From: Pseudanabaena biceps PCC 7429
GTDB taxonomy: Bacteria > Cyanobacteriota > Cyanobacteriia > Pseudanabaenales > Pseudanabaenaceae
Assembly: GCF_000332215.1 (NCBI RefSeq)
Contig: NZ_ALWB01000021.1
Span: forward strand, 1-35,507
Direction: 5' to 3'
Length of the DNA stretch: 35,507 nucleotides
The position numbers and the translations under genes were made by a program. Numbering within the stretch: the stretch's first letter is position 1; every line of letters starts with the position of its first letter. Shown piece by piece: positions 29,145 to 31,684 of this stretch. Below the pieces are notes generated by a model. The model saw only the letters and a program-made list of their open reading frames with translations, was not told the DNA's origin and made no database searches.

Positions 29145-29183
29145 CTCAAATAAAAGCCCTGCTTTGCAGGGCTTTTATTTGAG
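29145..29183. terminator. 18-bp perfect bidirectional hairpin between gcvP and the methylase remnant
   Basis: CTCAAATAAAAGCCCTGC and its exact reverse complement flank a TTT loop. The arms end in A-rich and T-rich tracts, so each strand gives a stem with a following U-run. It lies 1 base after the gcvP stop and contains the last codons and TAA stop of the convergent methylase remnant. Confidence 0.8.
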
Positions 29184-30845
29184 AATTACCACTTCACCAC
29201 GCTCATTCGCCGCATTAAACTCTTCCCCAAAATCACAGGTCGAGATATCGCCTAGCTGAATATTCTGCTCAAAATTTGGCAAATAGACGTAGATTTCTAG
29301 CGATCGCAAACAGAGGGAAAGGCGCGTGATTTCAATAGATTCTTCCACAACATCACAGCCAAATAGATTATGTTGCAGAATATGGGCGATCGTCTCCGCA
29401 GGCGTTGTATAGGCGATCGATTCGACATCATTGGTAAACTTGGTTAATAAATGATAGATGCGCTCATGTTCAGAAAGTAAAAACTCTAAGGCAGTGACCA
29501 GAAATACCCCAGCCCCACACTTGGGATGCAAAACTTTAACCTTTAATAAACGCTCTTGATATTCTTGGCAATAGGCTAGAGTATCTTGAGTGAATCGGCG
29601 ATCGCCATCACGAGGAATCTTGGATATAGATAGGTGCTGTTTCAAAACCCGAATTACCGATTCACTTTGCAAAATCGCTTTACAAGGCAATTTGGGAATG
29701 CGGCGTTTACTGAGATTGCTCAGATCTTTACGATATTGTGATAATTCCTTGATCGATTCATCAAAAAGGCAGGTAAGGATATGACGGGTGATATCTTCGC
29801 AAAAGTCAAAACGGGTAATCTCTTTAATCTGACGGCATAATTCATCCCCAACAAATAAAGCCCGATCTAGAATGGGATCTCTCGCGAATAGCCCCGATGG
29901 ATAAGCATTGATCGGCATGGAATAATTAGCATTACCATTTTGTACCCAACCAAATATTGCTTTATAGTTTTCCCAAATTGGTTGCTCGATATAGGGATTT
30001 ACAAATTCGTAGGCATCCTTAATTAAATTGGCGGGTAATAGCTGCCGGTCTTCGCAGTAAGCGATAAATAAAATGCGGTTTAATAATTTTTGGGCTTGAT
30101 AAATGGCGATCGCGATCGCATCTTCCGCCTTAATCTGGAGATTTGTTTGTACAGACTGTGAAGGATGGGCTAACAATTGCAAACGATAGCGGAAATCCTT
30201 AATTAGCTGACTGCGAATTTTGTAGTAGTGACTGTAAAAATTTTTGAGAAATTCCGATTCGAGTTGGTGTGACTCCTCTAGTAAATGGGTAGTCCGCGAT
30301 CGTTCTTCACTATTAGCAATTCCCCTGAGTAAAGTTCGTCGTGACAGCAAAAAATAAAAAGCCTTGAACTGATCTAAATCCGCCAAAGACTCCCAAGAAA
30401 ATCGCTGACAGAACAAACTCGATACGTCACGGTGGTAAAGACAAATTTCTCGATAATCTAAAACAATCAGCCACTCAGTTGTTTCATACTCCGGTTCGGG
30501 CTTAACGATTGCTCCCTCTTCCGCAGTATTAACCCTAACTTCGGCAATTACATTGACTGAGGTTTCGGTAAAAAAACCAAGGGCAGGATTGGGGTGTAAT
30601 TCTAGCTCCCACGCACCACCACTGGTCTCAAAAGGAGACTTATATCCTAAAATATCAACAAAAATATCATGCAAAAATTGCGCTTCAGCAATTAAATTTG
30701 ATGGTTCCCCATCACTGGCAAAATACAGCCACTTCTGGACTATCTGAAAACGTTCTCCCAAATCTCTTGGGAAACCAAAAGAACTAATTCGCTTTGCGAG
30801 AGGTTTCGGATGAAACAGTGAGTAGTAAGGCGATCGCTGATTCAT
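29175..30845 (-). CDS. Truncated Eco57I/type IIG-like N6-DNA methylase remnant
   Basis: A 556-residue protein whose N-terminal 400 residues resemble the nuclease/helical part of Eco57I-like restriction-methylation proteins (FLHDIFVDILGYKSPFE, CEDRQLLP). Residues about 440-550 start an N6-adenine methylase domain: VLHPKCGAGVFLVTALEFLL is motif I but with the leading aspartate changed to histidine (usual DPxCGSG), and HNLFGCDVVEESIEITRLSL is motif II. The protein ends GEVVILK just where FDVVIGNPPY would follow, so the catalytic NPPY motif and the target-recognition domain are missing. The stop lies inside a hairpin shared with gcvP's end. It overlaps DUF3007 by ATGA (30842-30845). Methylation activity is very unlikely. 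Confidence 0.68.
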   Translation of the reverse strand: MNQRSPYYSLFHPKPLAKRISSFGFPRDLGERFQIVQKWLYFASDGEPSNLIAEAQFLHDIFVDILGYKSPFETSGGAWELELHPNPALGFFTETSVNVIAEVRVNTAEEGAIVKPEPEYETTEWLIVLDYREICLYHRDVSSLFCQRFSWESLADLDQFKAFYFLLSRRTLLRGIANSEERSRTTHLLEESHQLESEFLKNFYSHYYKIRSQLIKDFRYRLQLLAHPSQSVQTNLQIKAEDAIAIAIYQAQKLLNRILFIAYCEDRQLLPANLIKDAYEFVNPYIEQPIWENYKAIFGWVQNGNANYSMPINAYPSGLFARDPILDRALFVGDELCRQIKEITRFDFCEDITRHILTCLFDESIKELSQYRKDLSNLSKRRIPKLPCKAILQSESVIRVLKQHLSISKIPRDGDRRFTQDTLAYCQEYQERLLKVKVLHPKCGAGVFLVTALEFLLSEHERIYHLLTKFTNDVESIAYTTPAETIAHILQHNLFGCDVVEESIEITRLSLCLRSLEIYVYLPNFEQNIQLGDISTCDFGEEFNAANERGEVVILK

Positions 30846-31192
30846 TCATCTTTGACGGCTTTTTGATCTATAGGTTGAACTTGTCGAACTAACTGATTCT
30901 CTGCCTCTACTTCTGCCAGTAAAATATTCCGCTCCTCAGGTGACATTTCCTCTAAGCGCTTAGCCAAAACTGCTTTTTTGTAGTCATCAAGCTGTTGGTT
31001 ATAGGTCATAGTTTGCGTAACGGCTCGAAATACATAGGTAGAAATCCAAGCTATTAAAACACCAACTAAAACCACTTGGCTCCATACCCCTGCATTGGTT
31101 GTATCAAAACCATAGGCTCGAAACATCCAAAAGGCGAAACCACCAAATCCAAAAAAAGCTACCATAATCGCTATAGCATCAATACGGCGCAT
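30842..31192 (-). CDS. DUF3007 family membrane protein
   Basis: From the ATG at 31192 this is a 116-residue protein starting MRRIDAIAIMVAFFGFGGFA, with two membrane helices separated by RAYGFDTTNAGVWSQ. It then has the conserved tail TYVFRAVTQTMTYNQQLDDY and a charged helix LEEMSPEERNILLAEVEAE. DUF3007 is confined to cyanobacteria and plastid-bearing lineages and typically follows ndhL, as here. The in-frame ATG at 31234 is less likely because the family starts MRR. Its stop overlaps the start of the methylase remnant. Role unknown, with a possible link to NDH-1 complexes from context. Confidence 0.85.
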   Translation of the reverse strand: MRRIDAIAIMVAFFGFGGFAFWMFRAYGFDTTNAGVWSQVVLVGVLIAWISTYVFRAVTQTMTYNQQLDDYKKAVLAKRLEEMSPEERNILLAEVEAENQLVRQVQPIDQKAVKDE

Positions 31193-31293
31193 AGTTTTAA
31201 TCTCTAAGGGCTTCCTTCCAGCAGAAAATGTCAAGAACTGTCTTCCTAATATCTCCCGCTATTGGCTAAAATCTGACGATCACGAACTCATGG

Positions 31294-31358: not shown

Positions 31359-31589
31359 TCAAATGGCTCTTGCTTGAGGACGAAAATTAAAGAATGGGGA
31401 TAGTAATAATAGTCCAGGAAAGAAGAAAAAGGCTAAAAAGCAGAGAAATACTCTTTCTAGGGAACCTGTTTTGTACCAACGTGCTTTGAAATAAAAGAGC
31501 ACTAACAGGGGGATTACCAGTAAATATGCACCTGCGATCGTCGCATAGACAATGGGCGCAAGAAATGGCGAAGAGAGCAGGAATGACAT
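31359..31589 (-). CDS. ndhL: NAD(P)H-quinone oxidoreductase subunit L
   Basis: From the ATG at 31589 this gives 76 residues: MSFLLSSPFLAPIVYATIAG, then AYLLVIPLLVLFYFKARWY, TGSLERVFLCFLAFFFFPGL and LLLSPFFNFRP. The two membrane helices and the AYLLVIPL, KARWY and FPGLLLLSPFxNFRP motifs are diagnostic of NdhL, a small subunit of the thylakoid NDH-1 complex needed for cyclic electron flow and inorganic carbon uptake. An upstream in-frame ATG at 31649 would add 20 atypical residues. DUF3007 follows on the same strand, the usual cyanobacterial order. Confidence 0.9.
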   Translation of the reverse strand: MSFLLSSPFLAPIVYATIAGAYLLVIPLLVLFYFKARWYKTGSLERVFLCFLAFFFFPGLLLLSPFFNFRPQARAI

Positions 31590-31684
31590 ATTTCTAGACA
31601 GGATTGTGTAGATGTTTATAGATGTGTTTAAGCTTGATTTTAGCAGCAAAAAAGCATATCTCTATGCCTAAATCTACCTCAAAC

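Follow-up and report, generated by a model that had tools for sequence, protein, structure and literature searches.

A short, apparently non-catalytic descendant of Type IIG restriction-modification enzymes conserved, usually behind ndhL and DUF3007, in Pseudanabaenaceae

The window, i.e. the whole stretch of DNA that was analysed, comprises 35,507 nucleotides of Pseudanabaena biceps PCC 7429 (contig NZ_ALWB01000021.1). An open reading frame on its reverse strand (29175-30845, ATG start, 556 amino acids) is referred to as the window gene and its product as the window protein; orthologues of this length class are called short forms and full-length relatives long forms. The features of the locus were assigned as follows.

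29175..30845, (-): short, apparently catalytically dead gene derived from a Type IIG gene, 556 codons plus stop (open reading frame, genus and family orthologues, purifying selection)
30396..30845, (-): nuclease-like domain at the N-terminus (residues 1-150), lacking the PIELK of the long forms (motif counts; modelled helix-strand pattern)
29541..30377, (-): helical connector, residues 157-435, with motif X (YTP) lost near 388-390 (model, invariant columns, motif counts)
29178..29540, (-): half of a methylase fold, beta1 to beta4 (residues 436-556) (model; fold matches MmeI and CamA)
29508..29528, (-): motif I in the altered form HPKCGAG (residues 440-446); DPACGSG in long forms (sequence comparison)
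29352..29354, (-): Asp498 at the end of beta2, in the place of motif II (30/30 short rows reaching the position, 25/25 long rows)
30842..30845, (-): ATGA stop/start overlap with the DUF3007 gene (NTGA overlap in 30/33 short genes)
30842..31234, (-): gene for DUF3007, the domain found in CPLD38; assignment of its true start uncertain (Pfam PF11460, 8.7e-38)
31359..31649, (-): ndhL, true start uncertain (Pfam PF10716, 1.7e-23)
29145..29183, no strand: 18-bp inverted repeat with 3-nt loop, terminator-like, between the convergent 3' ends of the window gene and the presumed gcvP (read by eye)

The immediate neighbours of the window gene are thus DUF3007 and ndhL upstream and, downstream, a convergent gene of 1002 amino acids which we take to be gcvP. 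Two structural claims of the original prediction, the ATGA coupling to DUF3007 with ndhL upstream and a hairpin at the end of the frame, were recovered at these positions. The hairpin is a perfect 18-bp inverted repeat (arms 29145-29162 and 29166-29183) covering the stop codon and the last two codons of the window gene; it is absent from the output of the terminator scan, and its sequence varies between species of the genus (by eye). Because it lies between convergent genes and is variable in sequence, it was classed as terminator-like, and its interpretation as a truncation scar was rejected on the same variability. The promoter scan returned 3 sites where 10 were expected. The window protein is acidic (pI 5.6) with a maximum 19-residue hydropathy of 1.36, i.e. 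no strongly hydrophobic stretch.

Library searches with the window protein gave matches to Pfam MmeI_Mtase (23.8 bits) and Eco57I (14.8 bits) below the curated cut-offs of 27 and 25.3, respectively, and no PDB sequence match at E 1. The PADLOC Type IIG model PDLC03609 matched at 9.1e-31 over residues 246-533, and in BLASTP 25 long forms from cyanobacteria aligned to the protein with 28-34% identity; both support shared ancestry with Type IIG enzymes in the N-terminal and connector regions. BREX_6_MTaseX scored 23.5 bits where the cut-off is 900, which leaves the protein far outside the curated NCBIfam range for PglX. The nearest named relative is from Pseudanabaena sp. 'Roaring Creek' (99%), and no description of the short form was found in the open-access literature. 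A total of 39 plasmid records and 4 phage records gave matches at <60% identity; the ten listed plasmid matches are 26-30% identical and carry methylase or DNA methyltransferase annotations, some of them beside hypothetical proteins. Such relatives fit the capture of a mobile enzyme. By its sequence the short form descends from Type IIG enzymes, yet it lacks the features by which that family is defined.

These features were compared between short and long forms. The 33 short rows stem from 31 high-quality family genomes (completeness at least 90%, contamination at most 5%) plus G024 and G034. There were 30 strong long matches (28 non-family plus G024 and G032), of which 25 were examined for motifs, followed by G214 and G096, with G314, G288 and G145 left out. 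PIELK, [FY]YTP, DPACGSG and NPPY are all kept in 25/25 long forms, a selected set which mostly excludes broken frames and to which the count refers; one member, L156, has a shortened N-terminus. In the short forms PIELK, YTP and NPPY each occur in 0/33 (the rows of G031 and G034 end at contig ends before the NPPY place) and DPxCGxG in 1/33 (G028), so that the comparison with full-length homologues advised earlier separates the two sets, and the catalytic motifs of both activities are lost. At the PD-(D/E)xK nuclease site the column aligned with the Lys of PIELK (106) holds K in 0/33 short forms. Glu102 is present in 33/33, with a placement relative to PIELK that is ambiguous by two residues; were it the catalytic Glu, the place of the Lys (104) would be K in 1/33. 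The originally noted H for D in motif I was confirmed as His440 of HPKCGAG, which is found in 24/24 genus rows; outside the genus N, A or S stands there, and D in two rows. Gly446, like Asp498, is kept in 30/30 short rows covering the position and in the 25 long rows.

The C-terminal end was compared likewise. The window protein terminates in VVILK where motif IV (NPPY) would be due, as had been predicted, and since it stops at beta4 it has neither a target-recognition domain nor the complete, NPPY-containing gamma-class methylase of a CamA-like orphan enzyme. All 24 genus rows terminate in LK after a hydrophobic stretch; the C-termini in other genera are LLIYTKT, LLILK, LIMLSA, HLVYLDCG, HLVYLD and RPIYLE, and a separate downstream frame in G060 ends in NVLILP. 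The common end point is read as one ancestral truncation, an equivalence that is less sure for the eroded forms. The G028 orthologue (L035 7079-9526, (-)) measures 816 amino acids from its start codon yet has the same end; its extra length is due to long insertions near residues 226-243 and 403-423 of the window protein.

The predicted structure of the window protein (58-row alignment; pLDDT 88.7, pTM 0.90) begins with an alpha/beta domain, which is followed by a long helical region and by half a methylase whose strands lie at 437-441, 494-498, 529-531 and 552-554, the last of which (beta4) lies two residues before the end. With VIA-align the best solved matches were MmeI (Z 12.6, rmsd 4.0, 283 aligned residues, model residues 199-556) and CamA. 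Model residues 351-556 aligned with CamA residues 2-164 (Z 11.8, rmsd 3.4, 152 aligned), and the last model residue, 556, was paired with CamA residue 164. In CamA, motif IV follows beta4 and its NPPY spans Asn165 to Tyr168 (PMC8187626), so the last residue of the short form falls one position ahead of it. BrxX/PglX folds matched at Z 8.5-10.7. Residues before 196 are barely tested by the fold alignment, and the nuclease ancestry of the N-terminal domain therefore rests on the alignment to long forms. The eroded form of G033 (455 amino acids) was likewise modelled with confidence (pLDDT 90.4), again with a strand close to the C-terminus; since it matched no PADLOC family at 0.001, it is assigned to the group by alignment, tree and synteny.

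The short form was present in 24/26 same-genus genomes including that of the window, as frames of 548-582 codons without internal stops and with 72-99% identity; the other two genomes are 82% and 76% complete and also lack a detectable DUF3007. A profile search over the family gave some match in 37/38 genomes and in 31/31 of the high-quality ones, and the short gene itself is present in all 31, with two copies cut or frame-broken (G031, G060). In G031 and G034 the copy runs into a contig end, and that of G060 (L097 6204-7379, (-)) has frame breaks before the methylase part. In G006, G015 and G032 (74-82% complete) neither the short gene nor DUF3007 was detected and the profile matches were other methylases. 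In genus g6, G030 (77% complete) has DUF3007 with no short gene detected, and G059 (83% complete) has DUF3007 and only a frame-broken piece of the short gene elsewhere (L098 914-1876, (-)), beside a GAF-HD gene instead of DUF3007. True loss of the short gene in G030 and G059 is possible, both assemblies being incomplete, and the frame breaks in the draft-assembly copies of G059 and G060 may be decay or assembly error. G024 carries a short and a long gene.

The search was extended to the class (388 genomes, 32 of them family members). No short form occurred among the strong matches listed from the 356 other cyanobacterial genomes (listed to about E 6e-9, at most three candidates scored per genome, weak methylase-only matches in shorter frames left out). 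Two strong non-family matches have short frames, G214 (514 amino acids) and G096 (784 amino acids), and both keep NPPY. The G214 gene is a broken long Type IIG gene with pieces on two contigs (L169, L170). A split enzyme with its missing half in trans was considered and rejected: a search of 13 genomes with the C-terminal half of the long form L040 found no compact separate C-terminal half, with no match in 5/13, partial matches in 8 in frames of 849-1621 amino acids, and one weak match in a 175-amino-acid frame.

The gene order was analysed in the same genomes. The original prediction had called the place behind ndhL-DUF3007 unusual for a restriction-type gene and had raised the question of whether relatives share it; it is both unusual and conserved, ndhL-DUF3007 being directly upstream of the short gene in 31/33 cases and the 4-nt overlap of its start with the DUF3007 stop being kept in 30/33 over four genera (g1, g2, g4, g7). 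The G029 gene is linked to DUF3007 with no overlap. In genus g3 the short genes stand apart from ndhL-DUF3007, at a distance of about 260 kb in G027 and on a different contig in G034, and the link is therefore not obligatory. DUF3007 was found in 117/117 class genomes. In 25 of the 30 best-scoring non-family DUF3007 loci (L107-L136) a same-strand gene of 264-289 amino acids follows, which is trpA in the 3 of these 25 that were scanned; the five others differ (L108, L112, L125, L129, L130). trpA lies elsewhere in 9/9 family genomes tested (an extra short match in G026 was below the cut-off). The Chlamydomonas protein CPLD38 contains DUF3007; it is listed as necessary for cytochrome b6f to accumulate (PMC8448359), by a mechanism which another paper calls undefined in the passage concerned (PMC9279372). 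NdhL has been placed at the plastoquinone channel in a work on NDH-1 evolution (PMC12038448, in the part referred to).

In a tree of the 33 short and 25 long rows, rooted at midpoint, one branch separates the two sets with a support of 100/100; long branches and unusual composition were flagged for G031, G026, G033, G058 and G060. Codon-model omega for the 24 genus sequences was 0.080 over the whole gene and 0.052, 0.078 and 0.097 for the N-terminal, middle and half-methylase parts, respectively. Pairwise dN/dS, a check advised in the original prediction, was calculated for 15 genus pairs, 11 of them with dS between 0.1 and 1, and pointed to purifying selection (0.038-0.115), with 10/11 values at 0.038-0.067 and the highest for G018-G008. 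G022-G017 gave 0.050 (dS 1.56), G023-G025 gave 0.141 at a dS of 0.005, which is too low to inform, and two saturated pairs gave no value. Control values were 0-0.257 for DUF3007 (11 pairs) and 0.119 and 0.058 for gcvP. As judged from these alignments, the short forms thus make up one tree group that is present in nearly all family members, under purifying selection and with a conserved DUF3007 overlap.

Compared with known systems, the short form shares with Type IIG/IIL fusions (MmeI, DrdV, BpuSI; PDLC03609) the order of nuclease-like domain, helical connector and methylase; it differs in lacking PIELK, YTP, NPPY, the second methylase half and the target-recognition domain, and in being near-universal in its family, whereas restriction enzymes are usually mobile and sporadic. 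The orphan adenine methylase CamA has the methylase fold in common with it but is complete. BREX PglX/BrxX resembles it in fold and by weak family matches, while the short form scores far below the curated value, has no catalytic motif and is far shorter. The ndhL-DUF3007-trpA arrangement of other cyanobacteria has the same first two genes in the same order; in Pseudanabaenaceae, an early-branching cyanobacterial family, the third place is usually taken by the short gene.

The explanation we favour, with a probability of about 0.7, is that the short form is a Type IIG enzyme domesticated in the family ancestor as a non-catalytic binding protein. A Pseudanabaenaceae ancestor would have captured a Type IIG restriction-modification enzyme, and everything from the NPPY loop on (second methylase half and target-recognition domain) would then have been lost, along with the nuclease and cofactor-site motifs. 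What was left would have been kept as a stably folded, soluble protein, probably without enzymatic activity, for which we infer a binding or scaffold function exerted through the N-terminal and helical domains. The alternative origin, a very recent truncation (or a sequencing error), was rejected. A recently truncated pseudogene would account for the lost active site and the stop just before NPPY; the same end across the genus, the open frames and the omega of 0.080 make it wholly improbable. The original prediction had offered recent truncation and a retained non-catalytic role as its two options, of which the second is now supported, and had itself counted a widespread conserved short family against a truncation; such a family is what was found. 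Since the same end recurs in the genus and in other genera under purifying selection, the word remnant used for the gene is misleading.

The cellular process is less certain. Because the gene is usually coupled to a CPLD38-type DUF3007 behind ndhL, the leading, though tentative, candidate is a part in building or regulating the electron-transfer complexes of the thylakoid (cytochrome b6f, NDH-1). A more specific version is somewhat more doubtful still: a Pseudanabaenaceae-specific thylakoid accessory factor whose half methylase would bind or sense a ligand, SAM/SAH being one possibility, and which would act with the CPLD38-type protein in b6f or NDH-1 biogenesis. Against the thylakoid reading, an operon position can serve expression alone. 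An unrelated cytosolic role of the same conserved non-catalytic protein, with the ndhL-DUF3007 transcript used merely for steady expression, overlaps with domestication as a binding protein and differs in process only. It agrees with the retention of the unlinked genes in G027 and G034 and with an acidic protein that has no strongly hydrophobic stretch, and has to contend with the NTGA overlap kept across four genera; we give it about the same modest chance as a thylakoid process. A sensor of SAM/SAH (or a nucleotide), in which the half Rossmann fold could report methyl-donor status, would explain the invariance of Gly446 and Asp498 and the low omega of the half methylase (0.097), which indicates purifying selection. 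The two residues may have a structural role, motif X and the NPPY loop are missing, all rows but two, both outside the genus, have another residue in place of the motif I Asp, and the half methylase of G033 and G026 is shorter with an eroded motif I; a sensor is accordingly rated improbable. Less probable again is an immune accessory that would act as a decoy against anti-restriction proteins of phages or would modulate other restriction systems. Type IIG descent and the solved structures of the relatives BrxX/PglX bound to phage Ocr (by their entry titles) speak for it; the loss of the recognition domain speaks against it, as does a near-universal, slowly evolving gene behind photosynthesis genes, unlike sporadic defence genes.

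An apparently dead restriction enzyme has thus become a gene of nearly every family member with a fixed place behind two photosynthesis genes. This marks DUF3007/CPLD38 as having a possible lineage-specific partner, and an apparent truncated methylase can prove to be a conserved family below the Pfam cut-offs. Long-form-like fragments were also seen within the family, in G001, at contig ends (L043 152-1210, (-), and L068 3018-3398, (-)); one of them has an internal stop, and the same genome carries an intact short gene.
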